This document shows positions 22,752 through 33,557 of a DNA stretch of 34,142 nucleotides, piece after piece (positions within the stretch are counted from its first letter, which is position 1; each line of letters starts with the position of its first letter). Below the pieces are notes generated by a model. That model had not been told where the DNA came from. It was given only the letters and a program-made list of their open reading frames with translations, and did not search any database. This DNA comes from a virus. Where the stretch lies: positions 1 through 34,142 of the IMG/VR virus record IMGVR_UViG_3300030329_005377; one strand, written 5' to 3'. The position numbers and the translations under genes were made by a program.

Positions 22752-22775
22752 GAGAAGCTTAGAATCCCTTCTTAT
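22750..22775. promoter_or_regulatory. Imperfect inverted repeat spanning two divergent start codons
   Basis: Arms ATGAGAAG (22750-22757) and CTTCTTAT (22768-22775) match with one mismatch around a 10-base centre. The repeat covers the minus-strand ATG (22749-22751) and touches the plus-strand ATG (22774). It is a candidate operator for the adjacent putative DNA-binding protein. This is inferred from position and symmetry. Confidence 0.4.
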
Positions 22776-23154
22776 GGGAAAAAAAGCAAGCCGAAGGAGC
22801 GAGACCGGGAAGCCGCAGAGGTTCACAACCTTCCGCCTGCGCGAGCATATCCGGGACGCTTATAAGCTACACCGTGCCGACGTAGACTGTACGAATCGCA
22901 TAGACGAATACCTTGATGCTGCGCTGGAGGCGCTGATCCGTAAACATGGAATCCCAGACAAACCGTTCCGGTCTCCGAAGAAGGGGATTGTCGCCTGGAT
23001 CTCGGAAGGAACCGAGAGGAAGATCCGCCGCGTCTGTGTCTACCTCAACCTCGACGAAGACCAGGCAGTCGAGGCCGCAGTCGAAAACCTCCTCAAGCGG
23101 AACGGGTACCACACGGACCTCGACCTCGCGAGCGTGGGCGAAGAGACGCGGTGA
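22774..23154 (+). CDS. Putative ribbon-helix-helix DNA-binding protein
   Basis: A 126-residue protein taken from ATG 22774 (start MGKKASRR); in-frame starts at 22729 (TTG) and 22750 (ATG) also exist. Two similar halves each show a short basic strand followed by two helices: RFTTFRLREHIRDAYKLHR with EYLDAALEALIRKHG, and KIRRVCVYLNLDEDQAVEAA with VENLLKRNGY. This is the pattern of Arc/MetJ-type ribbon-helix-helix folds, possibly a tandem pair in one chain. It is the first gene of the replication operon and divergent from the terminase group, so a role as a regulator is plausible. The ribosome binding site is weak. Confidence 0.6.
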   Translation: MGKKASRRSETGKPQRFTTFRLREHIRDAYKLHRADVDCTNRIDEYLDAALEALIRKHGIPDKPFRSPKKGIVAWISEGTERKIRRVCVYLNLDEDQAVEAAVENLLKRNGYHTDLDLASVGEETR

Positions 23155-23155
23155 C

Positions 23156-23575
23156 TTGCGCTGCAAGGAGTGCGGCACTACCGAGGCTCCGCACTGTTCG
23201 GGCGGTCGCTGCCGCCCGTGCGTCAATCGGCTGGAGAGCGCCCGCAATGGGCGCACACGCTTCCAGAAGTGGTTCTCCGATCCTGACAAGCGTGCGAACT
23301 TCTACCGGCGGCGCACGCGCCAGAGGCTCAAGAAGAAATGGGAGCTCTGGCTGCTCAACCAGAAGTTTCTTAAGGCAATCGGCGAGGACGCGGAGTTAGA
23401 ATTTGAGGCAAACGAGCACCGGATCCGGGGGCTATTCCAGCGCCAGGATACGAAAGAAATCATTCAAGAGCAGAGGAGGCAGGATGCCAGGGAAGAAGCC
23501 AGGAAAGCCAGGAAAGCCAGGGAAGAACCCAGAAATCTCTCTGATTCTGGAGGTAAAGCCAAGCCAGCCTCCTGA
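23156..23575 (+). CDS. Basic protein with a Cys4 zinc-binding motif
   Basis: A 139-residue protein; the best start is TTG 23156, two bases after the previous stop. The frame extends upstream to 22946 but that part overlaps the previous gene in another frame. The N terminus has LRCKECGTTEAPHCSGGRCR then PCVNRL: two CxxC pairs typical of a small zinc ribbon, as in HNH-type or recombination-linked phage proteins, though no HNH histidines are evident. It continues with a basic helix (FYRRRTRQRLKKKWELWLLN) and ends in charged repeats (EEARKARKAREEPRN). It overlaps the next gene by 92 bases. Function is unknown; nucleic acid binding is likely. Confidence 0.55.
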   Translation: MRCKECGTTEAPHCSGGRCRPCVNRLESARNGRTRFQKWFSDPDKRANFYRRRTRQRLKKKWELWLLNQKFLKAIGEDAELEFEANEHRIRGLFQRQDTKEIIQEQRRQDAREEARKARKAREEPRNLSDSGGKAKPAS

Positions 23576-23724: not shown

Positions 23725-24027
23725 GTGGAGGGTAAGACCTTAGACGTTTGCACCTGCTGTGGGTCTCTAACCGAGGAGCCGCTGCTCCTTTATGACTCGC
23801 CCGTGTGCCCCTGGTGTGCTCAGAATGTGTTCCTCCCGCGGCATGTGATAGCGCACGTTCTCCGCGCTTGGAAGGGGTTAGATCCAGACGACGAGGAAGA
23901 CTCTCCCCGATCCCCGGAGTGGCGGCGGGTCGCAGGGGAGAAATTCGAAGAGGCTATCGACGAGATGGCGTTCTTTATGGAAGACAGTGAGCAGATGCTC
24001 AAGGATCTGTGTCAAGAAGAAGGTTGA
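23725..24027 (+). CDS. Small zinc-ribbon protein
   Basis: A 100-residue acidic protein from GTG 23725, one base after the previous stop; GGTGGAGG sequence around the junction can serve as ribosome binding site. The N-terminal half has VCTCCGSL and PVCPWCAQN, two CxxC pairs 20 residues apart, i.e. a zinc ribbon. The C-terminal half is an acidic helix (EKFEEAIDEMAFFMEDSEQM). Similar small zinc proteins are common among phage early genes, but the role is not known. A promoter-like sequence begins over its stop codon and a terminator follows. Confidence 0.68.
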   Translation: MEGKTLDVCTCCGSLTEEPLLLYDSPVCPWCAQNVFLPRHVIAHVLRAWKGLDPDDEEDSPRSPEWRRVAGEKFEEAIDEMAFFMEDSEQMLKDLCQEEG

Positions 24028-24053
24028 CTCGGCGCTGACCCCCCGTCTACACT
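24024..24053 (+). promoter_or_regulatory. Candidate sigma70-type promoter
   Basis: TTGACT (24024-24029) and TACACT (24048-24053) are separated by 18 bases; they match 5/6 and 4/6 of the -35 and -10 consensus. Transcription would begin near 24060, just before the terminator at 24083-24108, and might supply the primase-helicase operon if the terminator is partial. Confidence 0.45.
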
Positions 24054-24082
24054 TTTCGCCCTGACAACAGCCGAACGTCCTG

Positions 24083-24108
24083 CCGCCTACATGATTGGCG
24101 GTTTTTTT
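24083..24108 (+). terminator. Rho-independent terminator before the primase gene
   Basis: CCGCC (24083-24087) and GGCGG (24097-24101) form a 5-bp GC-only stem around a 9-base loop, followed at once by seven T (24102-24108). It lies in the gap between the zinc-ribbon gene and the primase. The stem is short, so termination may be partial. Confidence 0.7.
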
Positions 24109-24123
24109 GTCGGAGGCCGGGGT

Positions 24124-24990
24124 GTGAAGATCGTCGAGCTACTGCAGAGGACCGGGGCCGAGCTCACGGACAGGGGCAATGGCAAGTTCATCCTCTCGTG
24201 CCCCCTGTGTTCCGACAAGCGGAAGCGGGCAGCGGTGTGGGTCGACGGGGGGTTCGACTGCAAGAATTGTGGTGAGCGCCTGTCCTATTCCGCTCTGAAG
24301 CAGAAGCTCGGCGTGTTCGAATCTCAACCGCTCGCCCCCCTACGCACGAAGCGGGTGCGTCCCAGGTCTACCGAGGAGGTGGAAGCTCTCTGGGAGTCGG
24401 CCCGCAAGCGGGTGCTTACTCGGAAGGACTCCGACGAGGAAATCTACGCCTACCTTCGCTCCCGTGGTCTTCTCGACGTGCTCAAAAGCGGCGAATGCGG
24501 GATTCTCCCGCCGGAAGAGTCTCAAGAACTCCTGCGGCACCGTTTCGTGGTCCCACTTCGGCGGGAAGGGAGAGTTGTCTCTATGCAGGGCCGGGCAGTT
24601 TCCGAACACAAGATCAAGTGGAAGACTCTCGGCGGGACCACAACATGCGGCGGAGCCTTCTTTCGAAAAGCTGGGAGTCTTATCCTGGTCGCCGAAGGCG
24701 CGAGCGACTACCTCGCCCTCTGTCTAAGCACGGAGGACACCGTAGTCTCCGCGCCTGGTTGCGGATCCCTCGTCGACCTGATCGGCCCCTGGGTCTGTGG
24801 TCGCCGAATCGTCGTGTGCGGAGATGGCGACTATGTCGGTTCCTGCGCCGCTTCGGGCGTGGCCAGCGCTGCGCGGCGCTGGGGAGCTACGGTTCGGCAG
24901 TGGAGTGGCCGCTACCCAGACGTTTGTGAGGCTCTTCTCGCTGGTGGTTCTCGCGCTATAAGGAAGGAGATAGACGCGGATGGAGGATAA
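24124..24990 (+). CDS. DNA primase (zinc-binding plus Toprim)
   Basis: A 288-residue primase that would make RNA primers for lagging-strand synthesis. Start GTG 24124 is 7 bases after GGAGG (24112-24116); an earlier ATG at 24091 lies inside the terminator hairpin and is rejected. A zinc-binding domain holds CPLC (C26, C29) and CKNC (C46, C49), as in phage-type primase N termini. A Toprim-like core shows VAEGASDYLAL with E191 and VVCGDGDYVG with D234/D236, the acidic metal-binding triad. The central part (VPLRREGRVVSMQGRAV) is the usual strand pair before Toprim. It overlaps the helicase gene by 11 bases, a pairing typical of phage replication modules. Confidence 0.88.
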   Translation: MKIVELLQRTGAELTDRGNGKFILSCPLCSDKRKRAAVWVDGGFDCKNCGERLSYSALKQKLGVFESQPLAPLRTKRVRPRSTEEVEALWESARKRVLTRKDSDEEIYAYLRSRGLLDVLKSGECGILPPEESQELLRHRFVVPLRREGRVVSMQGRAVSEHKIKWKTLGGTTTCGGAFFRKAGSLILVAEGASDYLALCLSTEDTVVSAPGCGSLVDLIGPWVCGRRIVVCGDGDYVGSCAASGVASAARRWGATVRQWSGRYPDVCEALLAGGSRAIRKEIDADGG

Positions 24991-26338
24991 CGGCACGTTT
25001 TCCTATGACCCCCTGCTCCGGGCGCTCTCGTACCTGGATGTTCCGCAAGGGGAGCACAGGTTCAGCGCCCTGGACGAGGCGTACCTGTCGAGACTGCAGG
25101 ATCAGGTTGCTCTGGTCCTGAAAAAGAAGGGGAGGGACGGGGCAGCCGAGTTTCGAAAGAAATTCCCGGAGCTGGGGGCACTTTTGCTCCAGAAATTGTC
25201 GGGCGGGGACTTAGCGGCGGTTGAGGAGCTCAGGCGCCTCGTTCAGCAGTACGACAGGGCTTCGGTCCTGACTGGCGGAGACTCCGAGGTCTCTCCTTGG
25301 GTGAGAGTAGGGACCGAGGCAACTCAGCAGGTGCCCCCACTGCGTTTCATCTGGGGCCAATCCCTGCGGGAGGGACTCACAATCGTTTCAGGCCGTGAGA
25401 AGAGCGGCAAGACCCTCTTCTTCCTGGCTCTGAGCTACAGCTGGTCTCTTGGCGTTCCCTTCCTGGGGCAGGACTGCCCAAAGCTGCGCGTTGCTTGGTT
25501 CCAGGAGATGGGCTCCCAGGACTTCCGGCGGTACTCCGAGGAGGTCCGAGTGGGGCACGGGTTCCCGAGCGATGGGTGTGAGTTCATGGCCTGCTTCCCC
25601 CGTGGGCTGGACCTAACAAAGCCCGAACAGCAGAGGCTCTGGATTGACCATGTCGTCGGGCTCTCTCCTCGCCCTGAGGTCGTAATCGTCGACAGCCTCG
25701 CGGGACTCCACTCGGCTCCAGAGAAGAGCTCGGAGGAGGTGCGGAAGTTCACCCGTGGTTTCCTGGTCCCGCTCAAGGAAGCTCTGGGTGAGGGGTCGGC
25801 GGTGATCGGCCTCCATCACCAGGCCAAGCACGGGGACGGGCTGAGCGCTCGCGGCTCCACTGAGTTCGGGGCGGCTACTGATGCGAACGCGTTCTTCGTG
25901 GCTACGGTCGCGGGCGAAGGCCCCGATTCGGCCCCGGTAGAGTTCGTTGCTGGCGGGGGTCGCGGGATAGGGTCGGGGGGACGGGTAGCCTTCCAAACGA
26001 CCCACGCTCGCCAGGACGGGCAGAGCCTGACCAAGGTCCATCTGGCTGAGGAGGACGCAATCGAGGCCGCTAGAGAGCGATCTGAGGCCTCCAAGCGGAG
26101 GTCTAAGCCAATCGAAGACTCGAAGCGCTCCGTGTATGAGCACGTTCGGACGCTCGGCCCCCTCGAGAAGGGAGAGATGATCCGGGCGTTTTCGGAGACA
26201 GAAATAACAGAGACCCGGATCACCAAGTCGCTGACAGCGCTGCGTGCCGAGGGGCACCTACGGCTCCGTGGTCGGGAGTGGTCAGCGGTCAACCCAGAAG
26301 TGGCTTATGGTCGGCTGCTGAGGATAAGTAGCACTTAG
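24980..26338 (+). CDS. RepA-like/AAA_25 replicative helicase
   Basis: A 452-residue RecA-fold ATPase that probably unwinds DNA with the primase. Walker A is GREKSGKT (138-145), Walker B is VVIVDSL (234-240), the sensor region has GLHHQAKHG (277-285) followed by LSARGSTEF, the RepA-type signature. The N-terminal ~110 residues are helical and resemble an adaptor domain. The C-terminal ~70 residues (EKGEMIRAFSETEITETRIT, SLTALRAEGHLRLRGREW) look like a winged helix that may bind DNA. The ribosome binding site is GGAG before ATG 24980. It ends just before the long structured non-coding region, which would suit an origin next to its helicase. Confidence 0.85.
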   Translation: MEDNGTFSYDPLLRALSYLDVPQGEHRFSALDEAYLSRLQDQVALVLKKKGRDGAAEFRKKFPELGALLLQKLSGGDLAAVEELRRLVQQYDRASVLTGGDSEVSPWVRVGTEATQQVPPLRFIWGQSLREGLTIVSGREKSGKTLFFLALSYSWSLGVPFLGQDCPKLRVAWFQEMGSQDFRRYSEEVRVGHGFPSDGCEFMACFPRGLDLTKPEQQRLWIDHVVGLSPRPEVVIVDSLAGLHSAPEKSSEEVRKFTRGFLVPLKEALGEGSAVIGLHHQAKHGDGLSARGSTEFGAATDANAFFVATVAGEGPDSAPVEFVAGGGRGIGSGGRVAFQTTHARQDGQSLTKVHLAEEDAIEAARERSEASKRRSKPIEDSKRSVYEHVRTLGPLEKGEMIRAFSETEITETRITKSLTALRAEGHLRLRGREWSAVNPEVAYGRLLRISST

Positions 26339-26428
26339 GAGTGTTTTAGTCAGCTTCTTCGCGAGCACGCTGTCGCGCGCAGCGAAGTAAGCGTAACGAA
26401 AAGTCGTAAGTCTGTCAAGAGGGGGGCA

Positions 26429-26539
26429 ATGAGATTCGTCCTCCACAGCGAGGCCCTAACAAACAACTACCCGACGGTCACCCGACTAGTCGGGGCCGTC
26501 GGGCGACCAGAGCTCCGAATAAAAAAACCCCACGCCTGA
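26429..26539 (+). CDS. Possible 36-residue micro-ORF
   Basis: ATG 26429 follows AGAGGGGGG and reads 36 codons to TGA: MRFVLHSEALTNNYPTVTRL, then VGAVGRPELRIKKPHA. The nested CCCGAC palindrome lies inside it. It is too short to judge by composition, and the palindrome offers an alternative reason for the sequence. Listed as possible only. Confidence 0.25.
   Translation: MRFVLHSEALTNNYPTVTRLVGAVGRPELRIKKPHA
26470..26503. repeat. Nested palindromes built on CCCGAC/GTCGGG
   Basis: The inner palindrome CCCGACTAGTCGGG (26481-26494) is perfect. It is enclosed by CCCGACGG (26470-26477) and CCGTCGGG (26496-26503). CCCGAC thus occurs twice in each orientation within 34 bases, as expected for a site bound by dimers or for a strong RNA hairpin. 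No T-run follows on the plus strand. Confidence 0.85.
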
Positions 26540-26556
26540 GGGTCTTAGGCGCGGGG
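26521..26556 (-). terminator. Minus-strand rho-independent terminator
   Basis: Read on the minus strand, CCCCGCGCCT and AGGCGTGGGG form a 10-bp stem (one G-U pair) around a 9-base loop, followed by seven T (plus-strand A run 26521-26527). On the plus strand the stem has a mismatch and no T-run, so it works for leftward transcription, presumably that of the 29424-27500 cassette running past the amidase gene. Confidence 0.85.
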
Positions 26557-26593
26557 TCGTACGGAAAGTGCCTGCAAATGCGATTGCTATTTT

Positions 26594-26609
26594 AACGAAT
26601 CGGTTCGTT
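26594..26609. repeat. AACGAA/TTCGTT inverted repeat
   Basis: A perfect 6-bp inverted repeat around TCGG. It lies between the opposed terminators in a short AT-richer patch (TGCTATTTTAACG). It could be an operator or a minor hairpin. Confidence 0.5.
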
Positions 26610-26610
26610 C

Positions 26611-26639
26611 GGGTCACTCGTCGTGACCCATCTTTTTTT
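26611..26639 (+). terminator. Plus-strand terminator, first of two
   Basis: GGGTCAC (26611-26617) and GTGACCC (26623-26629) form a perfect 7-bp stem with a TCGTC loop, followed by ATC and seven T (26633-26639). It would end the primase-helicase transcript. Confidence 0.9.
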
Positions 26640-26699
26640 GGCTGCCGAGTGAGTGACCCCCTTCGGGACACTCTCCTTCTAACTCGGCAGCCTTTTTTT
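26640..26699 (+). terminator. Plus-strand terminator with a branched stem, second of two
   Basis: GGCTGCCGAGT (26640-26650) pairs perfectly with ACTCGGCAGCC (26682-26692), then seven T (26693-26699). A smaller hairpin sits inside: GAGTG (26651-26655) with CACTC (26669-26673) and CCC with GGG. It directly abuts the T-run of the first terminator. Confidence 0.9.
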
Positions 26700-26708
26700 G
26701 CCCCCTCG

Positions 26709-26771
26709 GAACGGAATGCCCGGCCCCCAGAACGGAATGCCCGGCCCTCAGAACGGAATGCCCGGCCCTCA
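26709..26771. repeat. Iteron set A: three 21-bp direct repeats
   Basis: Units 26709-26729, 26730-26750 and 26751-26771 share the core GAACGGAATGCCCGGCCC, differing at one position near the end. A 21-bp period places each unit on the same face of the helix. Confidence 0.93.
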
Positions 26772-26844
26772 AAAGCGACAGCCTGGGGTGAAAAAGCGAC
26801 AGATTGGGGCGAAAAAGCGACAGCCTGTGGTAAGGCGCGGGTAG
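26716..26844 (+). CDS. Possible micro-ORF through the iterons
   Basis: ATG 26716 opens 42 codons through both iteron sets to TAG at 26842: MPGPQNG three times in near form, then QPGVKKR, QIGAKKR and QPVVRRG. In-frame ATGs recur at the start of the first three repeats. The upstream sequence has no convincing ribosome binding site. The repeat period is a multiple of three, so any frame gives peptide repeats; coding is therefore not favoured. Confidence 0.15.
   Translation: MPGPQNGMPGPQNGMPGPQKRQPGVKKRQIGAKKRQPVVRRG
26772..26834. repeat. Iteron set B: three 21-bp direct repeats
   Basis: Units 26772-26792, 26793-26813 and 26814-26834 share the core AAAGCGACAG followed by a G/T-rich half (CCTGGGGTG, ATTGGGGCG, CCTGTGGTA). 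They follow set A without a gap and keep its 21-bp phase, although the sequence is different. Confidence 0.92.
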
Positions 26845-26888
26845 GATCTTTCGTGGAGTTAAGACGCTTCCTATACAGGAGACCCCCC

Positions 26889-27503
26889 GTGCCCTACGCA
26901 GAGACGGTTCGATCCGAGTTTCGGAGTGGAGACGTCCTCCTCTTCGGGGGCAAGGGGGCGATATCCTCCACAATCAAGTGGTTCACGGGGTCGCGGCACT
27001 CCCACTGTGGGCTTTTGCTGTACAGCTCGGAGCTCGATTGCGTTCTCCTCTTCGAGTCGACGACGCTCTCCGACGTGCCAGGGGCTCTCACGGGAGAGGC
27101 TACTCAGGGAGTCCAGCTGGTAGCTCTTTCGGAGAGGCTCAAGACTTACGACGGAGAGGTGTTCGTACGGCACTTGAGCCCGGCCCTCGACTCTGCCCAA
27201 CTTCGGAGCCTGTGCTCTTTTCGGAAGGAGATGCGCGGGCGACCGTATGAGGAATCCAAGCTCGAGTTGATACGGGCAGCCTACGACGGATGGGGCGGGA
27301 AGAATGAGGAGGATTTGTCGAGTCTGTTCTGCAGTGAGCTCGTGGCGGAGGGGCTGCAACGAGTCGGGGTTCTCGGAGAGACAAAGCCCTCGAACGAGTA
27401 CACCCCGGCAGATTTTAGCTCGGCGCGGGAAGGTTTGGAGCTGGCCCCCGGATACTCTTACGGTCCAGAGGTCCAGCTCCTGTCTGGTAGAGCTCCCGAC
27501 TAA
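26889..27503 (+). CDS. Permuted NlpC/P60-like (YiiX-type) cysteine hydrolase
   Basis: A 204-residue protein from GTG 26889, 6 bases after AGGAGA; the frame runs open to 26568, but that part crosses two terminators and the iterons. Motifs follow the permuted papain-like order: FRSGDVLLFGGKGAISSTIK, a His in TGSRHSHCGLLLYSS, a Glu in VLLFESTTL, then a Cys in LFCSELVAEGLQRVGVL, and finally a PSNEYTPADFSS tail. In YiiX-type enzymes the His precedes the Cys. Substrates could be peptidoglycan stem peptides or protein/lipid amides; the sequence does not tell. There is no signal peptide. Its stop overlaps the convergent gene's stop by 4 bases (27500-27503). Confidence 0.72.
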   Translation: MPYAETVRSEFRSGDVLLFGGKGAISSTIKWFTGSRHSHCGLLLYSSELDCVLLFESTTLSDVPGALTGEATQGVQLVALSERLKTYDGEVFVRHLSPALDSAQLRSLCSFRKEMRGRPYEESKLELIRAAYDGWGGKNEEDLSSLFCSELVAEGLQRVGVLGETKPSNEYTPADFSSAREGLELAPGYSYGPEVQLLSGRAPD

Positions 27504-28732
27504 CTCAGAGACTCCCGGTGGACCTTCAGGATTGTGGACTTCTGCTTCGGCGAGAGGGGGTACTGACCTTTCTTGCCCAGTAGGTCTTCGACGAACTTGC
27601 TCTCCCAATCGTTGAGCTCACCAATCTCGTCGAGTTCCTCGAGCTTGGCGTAGTACGCTTCGTCTGACTCTGACTCTCCTCCCCCGTCCGCCTCGGCTGG
27701 CTTCAGGTCGTTGAAAATCCCCTCGAGGAGGGCCGACACGTTGCTCAGCTCACCCTGCTGCGTCGTGTCGTTTATCAGCGCCGCGACATCAGCCCCGCCG
27801 AAGGCCGAGTCTAAGGCCCGCTTGAAGGCTGGGTCTTGTTTGGCTCTGTCCCTGGCGGAGTCGTATATCTTGCGGACTGCGCTACGCGCCGAGTCGAGCC
27901 CGTCAAACTGCATGTTGTCGAGCTCCTCGTTCTTCCTCTCCTCGGTCGAGGCGGTGCGCACCTTGCGATCCGAGAGTTCTTCGACGTTCTTCCTCAACTT
28001 CTTCAAGGCGAGCTCGGCTTGAGCCTCGGAGAGCTGCGTCAGGCTGTCGACGCCGAAGCGGCTGCAGACTTTGAGGCTTAGATCTTCGTGGCTCCACCCA
28101 AGCGCACTCCCCCCGGCGTGCAGCGCCTTCATCTGGTTTCGCGTGATCCCCTCTCCCGGAGGCTCTGCTTCTGCCCTCGAGGGTGCCGACATCTTAGGCG
28201 GTCCGGCGTCGATCACTCCGTTGGCTTTGAGGTCTTCGATGTCTTGGGTGAAGAGGTCGCTCGCTCCAGACATCAGCAGAGCTGCAGCAACCTTGGCGCG
28301 TTTGTGCGCCATTTTGCAAACCGTGTTGTCCAAATCGGTCGGGTTGTCGGACGGCTTGCCCGACCGCCAGTACCGGCGTTCTTTGGAGCTCGCGGTCCCC
28401 TCGGCTACCCAGTTCTGATTGCCGCTGCTAATCGTAGCCTGGGAGCGGTAGAGGTAGTGGTCGTTGTCGAGGTTGAGACGCTCGATGGTTTCGACCTTCG
28501 CGCTGGCGTTCCTAAGCTGTATCAGCAGGTCAGCCCCCGGCTGGAAGAGCGACTTCTTGCCCCTTGTGTGCGGCACCTCTCCGTAGTGGACGCCCTCGCT
28601 CATAGCCTGACGCATAAGGGAGACCACGTTCTCCCTCCGCTTGAGGATTAGCTCAACCTGCGAGGTGCCGCCGTCGTCTGTGGGCACCGTCAAGGCTTGC
28701 TCTCCTGGTACGGCTAAGTCCGTGTCTGTCAT
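27500..28732 (-). CDS. Putative single-strand annealing/recombination protein
   Basis: A 410-residue protein from ATG 28732, with AGGAGA 10 bases upstream. The sequence shows the well-known phage pattern GVHYGEVPHTRGKKSLFQPG then ADLLIQL, a beta segment, GTASSKERRYW, and TVCKMAHKRAKVAAALLMSG followed by ASDLFTQDIEDL. A short C-terminal domain follows (ITRNQMKALHAGGSALGWSH, then SRFGVDSLTQLSEAQAELAL), as seen at the end of several phage recombination proteins. This family is often found with recombination genes and may anneal single strands; that function is inferred. The last ~140 residues are acidic. It shares a transcript with a zinc-finger gene and a RuvC-like resolvase. The frame stays open upstream of 28732 (see findings). 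Confidence 0.72.
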   Translation of the reverse strand: MTDTDLAVPGEQALTVPTDDGGTSQVELILKRRENVVSLMRQAMSEGVHYGEVPHTRGKKSLFQPGADLLIQLRNASAKVETIERLNLDNDHYLYRSQATISSGNQNWVAEGTASSKERRYWRSGKPSDNPTDLDNTVCKMAHKRAKVAAALLMSGASDLFTQDIEDLKANGVIDAGPPKMSAPSRAEAEPPGEGITRNQMKALHAGGSALGWSHEDLSLKVCSRFGVDSLTQLSEAQAELALKKLRKNVEELSDRKVRTASTEERKNEELDNMQFDGLDSARSAVRKIYDSARDRAKQDPAFKRALDSAFGGADVAALINDTTQQGELSNVSALLEGIFNDLKPAEADGGGESESDEAYYAKLEELDEIGELNDWESKFVEDLLGKKGQYPLSPKQKSTILKVHRESLS

Positions 28733-28817
28733 CGTATCTGTATCTCCTGTGTCTATCTGTAATGGTTGCTTGCCCCAGCGCCTTGCTAAATAACAGTCCA
28801 AGCATACGGCCCCGACC

Positions 28818-28991
28818 CTAACTAGGGCGGCGCCCGAACAGCTCTGACAAGTCCAGTTCCTCGGTGTAGCCTCGCGTCTCGATCTTCCGCTTGCAACGTT
28901 TGCACACATGGCCGCGAAGCCTCTCACAGTAGTAGAGCTCGGCGCTCTGCCCTCTGCAGGCGGAGCACCGGGCGAGTTCTTGCTTATCCAC
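28818..28991 (-). CDS. Small zinc-finger protein
   Basis: A 57-residue protein. GTG 28991 follows GGAGG at a 7-base spacing and overlaps the resolvase stop by 8 bases; a TTG at 29018 would add nine residues. Two CxxC pairs (ARCSACRGQ and HVCKRCKRK) 17 residues apart form a zinc ribbon, and the end is acidic (TEELDLSELFG). Such proteins often bind nucleic acids or act as accessory factors. It lies between the resolvase and the annealing-type protein, so a recombination link is plausible. Confidence 0.7.
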   Translation of the reverse strand: MDKQELARCSACRGQSAELYYCERLRGHVCKRCKRKIETRGYTEELDLSELFGRRPS

Positions 28992-29439: not shown

Positions 29440-29447
29440 TGTATACT
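29440..29447. promoter_or_regulatory. Shared palindromic -10 box for divergent genes
   Basis: TGTATACT contains the palindrome GTATAC. On the plus strand it gives TATACT (29442-29447), 5/6 to the -10 consensus, with a weak TTCACG -35 16 bases upstream. On the minus strand it gives TATACA toward the resolvase gene. The -35 for the minus direction is weak. Confidence 0.5.
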
Positions 29448-29453
29448 GTGCCT

Positions 29454-29624
29454 ATGGCAAGAAGACCAAAGAATTGGCGCGGGTTTCACGCCAAACTGGA
29501 CTCGGAAGTCCACGACCTGATCGACGAGCTCGCCCTTAGGCAGAAGACAACCAAGACCCACTGGCTCGAGGAATTGGTCAAGAAGTTTGGCCGCCGCCTC
29601 AGGGTCAAAAAGAGGGAGCTTTAG
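29454..29624 (+). CDS. Small ribbon-helix-helix protein
   Basis: A 56-residue protein of Arc/MetJ-like type: a short basic N terminus (MARRPKNW), a strand (RGFHAKLD), helix A (SEVHDLIDELALRQ) and helix B (KTHWLEELVKKFGRRL). Such proteins bind DNA as dimers and often repress their own promoter. ATG 29454 has no ribosome binding site and lies where transcription from the TATACT box would begin, so the mRNA may be leaderless; GTG 29439 would be an alternative start only if transcription began further upstream. It is the only plus-strand gene in this part of the window. Its stop overlaps that of the convergent gene by 4 bases (29621-29624). Confidence 0.75.
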   Translation: MARRPKNWRGFHAKLDSEVHDLIDELALRQKTTKTHWLEELVKKFGRRLRVKKREL

Positions 29625-32154: not shown

Positions 32155-32182
32155 CAGTTGCATCCTTTGGTTGTGGTGTGGC

Positions 32183-32204
32183 GCCTCGCCCACGTGGGCG
32201 AGGC
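32183..32204 (-). repeat. 22-bp intergenic palindrome, copy 1
   Basis: GCCTCGCCC and GGGCGAGGC enclose ACGT; the whole unit is a perfect palindrome. On the minus strand it is followed by GCCACACCACAACC and AAAGG before the 32154 gene. Confidence 0.95.
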
Positions 32205-32205
32205 T

Positions 32206-32219
32206 TGTGTGTGTGTGTG
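32206..32219. repeat. (TG)7 dinucleotide run
   Basis: Seven TG units between the stop of the 32643 gene and palindrome copy 1; a second such run lies at 29865-29882. Confidence 0.95.
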
Positions 32220-33004: not shown

Positions 33005-33032
33005 GGTCTCTCTCCTTTGGTTGTGGTGTGGC

Positions 33033-33054
33033 GCCTCGCCCATGCGGGCGAGGC
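33033..33054 (-). repeat. 22-bp intergenic palindrome, copy 2
   Basis: GCCTCGCCC and GGGCGAGGC enclose ATGC; arms are identical to copies 1 and 3, with a non-palindromic centre. On the minus strand it precedes the leader of the 33004 gene. Confidence 0.95.
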
Positions 33055-33061
33055 GTTTCGA

Positions 33062-33493: not shown

Positions 33494-33524
33494 GCGGTGT
33501 TACCTCCTTTGCTGTGGACGTGGC

Positions 33525-33546
33525 GCCTCGCCCATATGGGCGAGGC
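33525..33546 (-). repeat. 22-bp intergenic palindrome, copy 3
   Basis: GCCTCGCCC and GGGCGAGGC enclose ATAT; the whole unit is a perfect palindrome. On the minus strand it precedes GCCACGTCCACAGC and AAAGGAGG of the 33493 gene. Confidence 0.95.
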
Positions 33547-33557
33547 TTGTGGGTGTG

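Follow-up and report, generated by a model that had tools for sequence, protein, structure and literature searches.

The gap between the helicase gene and the gene for an amidase-like protein in this virus holds six contiguous 21-bp direct repeats, and we read it as a transcription boundary at which a helically phased array of regulator-binding sites lies at a weak, private promoter of the amidase-like gene, a reading to which we assign a probability of about 0.48. The window, i.e., the whole stretch of 34,142 nt that was analysed, comprises bases 1-34142 of an IMG/VR virus record of 35,062 bp in total; a run of N at its right edge (L006:1144-1153) is a scaffold gap. Portal, major capsid and TerL proteins give podovirus-like matches that are distant (about 25% identity; Microbacterium phage Shocker, Arthrobacter phage Jasmine). 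The array-bearing gap lies between the second and the third of the following genes:

24124-24990, plus strand: DNA primase-like gene with zinc finger and Toprim-like parts, in an operon with the helicase gene
24980-26338, plus strand: AAA_25 (RepA/hexameric helicase-like) gene; AAA_25 domain match with E 1.8e-15, and matches to helicase-primase PHROGs
26889-27503, plus strand: C92-like gene (YiiX/YaeF-type permuted papain-like amidase), 204 aa

The earlier note had placed a RepA-like helicase beside the repeats, and at the level of the domain this call holds. On the right, a minus-strand gene (27500-28927), the last of the right-hand operon, is convergent with the C92-like gene and overlaps it by 4 nt (27500-27503). 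Its protein carries a widespread phage domain, phrog_10048 (GVHYGEVP..PGADLL), that is also found in Eggerthella and Geobacillus phages. As a separate observation, the window's best plus-strand promoter match (TTGACT-18-TACACT, -10 at 24048, within 24024-24124) lies ahead of the primase gene, and an intrinsic terminator at about 24082-24106 follows it by some 30 nt, shortly ahead of position 24124, where the primase gene starts; this leader possibly serves attenuation or antitermination.

The repeats fall into two sets:

26703-26765, plus strand: A units, three direct repeats of 21 bp with the consensus CCCTCAGAACGGAATGCCCGG, unique in the genome
26766-26828, plus strand: B units, three direct repeats of 21 bp with the core AAAAGCGACAGCCTGG, in phase with the A units and unique in the genome

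The A units start at 26703 (CCCTCGGAACGGAATGCCCGG), 26724 (CCCCCAGAACGGAATGCCCGG) and 26745, the last being identical to the consensus, and the B units at 26766 (CCCTCAAAAGCGACAGCCTGG), 26787 (GGTGAAAAAGCGACAGATTGG) and 26808 (GGCGAAAAAGCGACAGCCTGT). This is the same array that had been framed before as 26709-26834, i.e., 6 nt later. At a lag of 21, 85 of 105 positions over the array are identical, which is far above chance, the maximum over lags 10-60 being 54 of 105 when the window was shuffled 30 times with its dinucleotides preserved. The A units are nearly identical to each other, and the B units vary at several positions while AAAAGCGACAG is intact in all. In phase, the consensus sequences of A and B agree at 10 of 21 positions, which has a P of 0.03 if this phase is taken by itself and of 0.51 if every phase is allowed, such that their similarity is not significant and the description as two unrelated sets of three in one phase is a fair one. 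The CCCTCA with which the A units begin on the left is retained in the first B unit.

With 21 bp, each unit spans two helical turns at 10.5 bp per turn, and the units, which are not palindromic, come to lie on one face of the helix; the array is thus of the kind formed by tandem, helically phased direct repeats of about 17-22 bp. RNA transcribed from the array folds no better than shuffled sequences (z 0.24), which points to a role at the level of DNA, and Rfam gave no match. Weight matrices built from A, from B or from all six units found no further site above the shuffled level elsewhere in the 35,062-bp record. In IMG/VR, a 16-mer of the A motif has 12 single chance matches, none of them in tandem, and the B motif has one single match (L122), which lies outside any array in a record that has no relative of the helicase.

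The near-identity of the A units is what a recent duplication would give, and the array was seen in no other sequence searched; the repeats could accordingly be a functionless expansion by replication slippage in a spacer. We hold this to be quite unlikely, since two triplications of equal length and the same phase fill the space from a terminator to the start of a gene in a genome that is densely packed, and since the B units differ from each other at several positions and yet have kept the shared motif.

To the left of the array, the gap contains the following elements:

26611-26639, plus strand: intrinsic terminator T1, stem 26611-26629 (-12.7 kcal/mol) followed by a T-run
26640-26699, plus strand: intrinsic terminator T2, stem 26640-26692 (-32.7) followed by T7, ending 3 nt left of the array
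26520-26558, minus strand: intrinsic terminator T3 (-23.4)
26470-26503, no strand assigned: nested palindrome, inner part CCCGACTAGTCGGG at 26481-26494

The left border of the array had been described in the earlier note as two tandem plus-strand terminators with a minus-strand terminator and a nested palindrome further left, and all four were located, T2 adjoining the array. On the minus strand, the nested palindrome forms a hairpin whose T-rich tail is weak, and it is possible that this hairpin acts as a second minus-strand terminator (T4). Two further observations concern this area. Pairing is possible between GGGTCACTC, the 5′ arm of T1, and GAGTGACCC in T2 (-24.5 kcal/mol; window 26608-26662), which would preclude both terminators; this is possibly an antiterminator, or else chance. 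An open reading frame of 36 codons (26429-26539) with a purine-rich ribosome-binding site overlaps the nested palindrome and T3 and has no family match.

The right edge of the array adjoins the start region of the C92-like gene, a point absent from the earlier note. This gene starts with GTG at 26889, preceded by the ribosome-binding site AGGAG at 26877-26881, and a homologue of 57% identity from other viral contigs starts at the corresponding position. The two proteins have in common the HSH (SH) and FCSEL motifs, the putative catalytic His and Cys motifs. The tentative family assignment draws on matches to PF05708 (E 0.0014, under the gathering score), to the NCBIfam models YaeF and YiiX (E 1.7e-5 and 8.1e-5, far under the cut-offs) and to PDB entry 3kw0 (E 1.8e-4). 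Homologues of the protein occur on small viral contigs (L003, L004, L005, L123-L125). Three of the homologue matches fall on contigs assigned to a Pacearchaeota MAG (NYZR01), and these are probably viral contigs binned with that MAG. An array is absent upstream of the C92 homologues in the other viral contigs.

The repeat length of 21 bp corresponds to seven codons, and the frame through the repeats is open from 26568, so that each unit could specify a heptapeptide in an extended N-terminus of the C92-like protein. This is hardly credible, however, since the longer frame would cross two intrinsic terminators, and there is a good ribosome-binding site at the GTG. The open frame was rejected as coding because the start of the homologue is level with GTG 26889.

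From the last T of T2 (26699) to the ribosome-binding site of the C92-like gene (26877) there are 177 nt, 126 of which are taken by the array. Barring read-through of both T1 and T2, a promoter of the C92-like gene must therefore overlap or abut the repeats. Its candidate is:

26817-26847, plus strand: putative weak promoter of the C92-like gene, GCGACA (in the last B unit)-19-TAGGAT, score 4.6, which is not outstanding

All plus-strand promoter scores in the gap are weak, the best being 4.6-6.1 as compared to 11 and above at the genome's best sites. Such matches are as expected for a promoter that needs a bound activator or regulator, and they also fit the absence of a promoter.

On the preferred reading, transcripts of the primase-helicase operon would terminate at T1 and T2, while leftward transcripts of the right-hand operon would cross the C92-like gene in antisense and stop at T3, perhaps also at T4. 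Since the 4-nt convergent overlap leaves no room for a terminator, T3 would be the first possible stop, and from the operon ends and this overlap we infer that the terminators of both directions are accounted for without invoking an origin. The six units, on one helix face, would extend into the -35 region of the weak promoter, where one DNA-binding protein, or two with one per class of site, would occupy the array and switch the C92-like promoter, most likely on. The units with their positions and uniqueness, the terminator-like hairpins and the order of the genes are seen in the sequence itself, whereas the binding of a protein, the direction of control and the place of the promoter are deduced. 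Candidates for such a regulator, picked by eye from the translations, are small RHH-like and zinc-ribbon-like proteins (22774-23154, 23156-23575, 29454-29624). A fact that stands against the private promoter is that the genome has no second place with these motifs, implying a regulator that serves a single gene, whereas phage late activators normally act at several operons; the lack of an array ahead of the C92 homologues in other viral contigs stands against it as well. The literature on direct repeats at late promoters yielded nothing. The proposal of a master control site survives in its local part, because the repeats fill the promoter space of the C92-like gene behind two terminators, but the absence of the motifs elsewhere argues against the word master.

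Two further observations come from the right part of the window. A TATACT -10 element is located 6 nt ahead of the start codon (ATG) of an RHH-like protein of 56 aa (29442-29624), which predicts a leaderless mRNA, and a hairpin (GCCTCGCCC..GGGCGAGGC) recurs between small minus-strand genes, before their ribosome-binding sites (32175-32210, 33030-33060, 33520-33550).

The gap had been called insulated, yet it contains good promoter-like sites on the minus strand, which had escaped notice before. With an approximate matrix that assumes the sigma70 consensus, the two top-scoring sites on the minus strand of the entire window lie here, and the first of them predicts a short RNA:

26589-26617, minus strand: promoter-like site Pm1, GTGACC-17-TAAAAT, top minus-strand score of the window
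26390-26418, minus strand: promoter-like site Pm2, TTGACA-17-TACGCT, second-best minus-strand score, which would direct antisense transcription of the helicase gene
26520-26582, minus strand: predicted leftward RNA of about 65 nt, from Pm1 to T3 (fold z -2.7)

Among 400 shuffles of the gap, one equally good site was obtained in 6% and two in 0.25%. The spacer of Pm1 is filled by a 16-bp palindrome, AACGAATCGGTTCGTT (26594-26609), which is operator-like. T3 follows the predicted start of Pm1 transcription by about 25 nt, and the predicted RNA would be antisense to the 3′-terminal part of the mRNA for the helicase.

A different account takes the units as iterons for one or two initiators that would melt the DNA and load the RepA-like helicase encoded next to them, possibly helped by leftward transcription from Pm1. 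The array resembles the iteron origins of RK2/TrfA-type plasmids, of lambda and of RSF1010 (oriV), the primase of the latter being RepB′, in its tandem, non-palindromic direct repeats of about 20 bp, here two helical turns each, and in the helicase and primase genes that adjoin it. The genome also has a single copy of the site, as is expected of an origin. The predicted short leftward RNA that ends at an intrinsic terminator resembles the lambda pO/oop system, in which such a transcript likewise arises in the replication region and is antisense to the end of the upstream message, but the likeness is one of layout, and in our case the element is found at the 3′ end of the helicase gene. In lambda, the origin has four 19-bp iterons and the pO promoter affects replication, though the oop RNA itself is thought to be of little importance for replication from ori-lambda (PMC3985674). 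RSF1010 has an oriV with the RepA helicase, RepC and a primase (PMC2200642), and in the origins of iteron plasmids the iterons are accompanied by DnaA boxes and by a region that melts (PMC4980987).

Set beside this last description, the origin has several points against it, as neither DnaA boxes, which are optional in phages, nor an unwinding element were seen at the array, nor an initiator gene among the proteins scanned. The array is 30-45% AT, array and flanks together are mostly at 30-57% per 40 nt with no AT-rich unwinding element alongside, and the AT-richest 50-nt windows of the genome lie elsewhere. The exact DnaA box TTATNCACA is absent, and near-matches number 5 as compared to 7 expected, one of them at 26319-26327. 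Among the subset of proteins scanned against Pfam, PHROGs and NCBIfam there is no initiator of the Rep_3 type; many of the scanned proteins belong to no family, and an initiator of an unrecognised family is possible. In contrast to iteron origins, the array furthermore has two unlike repeat sets and abuts the promoter region of a gene, and the C92-like promoter would have to fit into the same 177 nt.

Two checks that the earlier note had proposed gave the origin no backing. The raw cumulative GC skew does have its maximum near 27 kb, but this tracks gene direction and was rejected as evidence, the third-position skew in the coding sense having no step at 26.7 kb. Likewise, tandem arrays are absent within about 1.5 kb of the AAA_25 gene in nine relatives that carry one, a weak negative result, as these relatives are very distant. 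Scans of IMG/VR with helicase, TerL, MCP and primase and of genome contigs with the helicase found no close relative, nor did tblastn of the helicase and blastn of the region in phages. A TerL profile retrieved 80 distant relatives, the best at 43% (L030), and in the DNA examined from these no relative of the helicase was seen. Taken together, we consider an origin at this site unlikely, while still deserving serious attention.

A combination of both functions, in which origin iterons also regulate the adjacent promoter and A and B are bound by different proteins (an initiator and a regulator), would accommodate two sets in the same phase that have no significant similarity, the A set contacting the terminator and the B set the promoter. 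However, two binders are not in evidence, A and B could be diverged copies that serve one protein, and the A-type left end retained in the first B unit fits such a divergence, so that we rate the combination as quite unlikely. More speculative still is an extension in which the two iteron sets and their two proteins would couple helicase loading to the timing of the amidase-like gene, with the oop-like leftward RNA tuning the helicase message.

The private, regulated promoter that we favour resembles the activator or repressor arrays at bacterial and phage promoters in its helix-phased direct repeats, which follow terminators and reach the place at which the -35 region of a weak promoter is expected, and differs from them in having six sites in two classes at one genomic place only. 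Under either reading, the dense gap of terminators and promoters represents a compact and testable element. If it is an origin, it would be the first mapped replication start for an isolated podovirus-like lineage, and it would test whether iterons recruit RepA-like phage helicases. If it is a promoter switch, it would point to a phage DNA-binding protein that is dedicated to one amidase-like gene.
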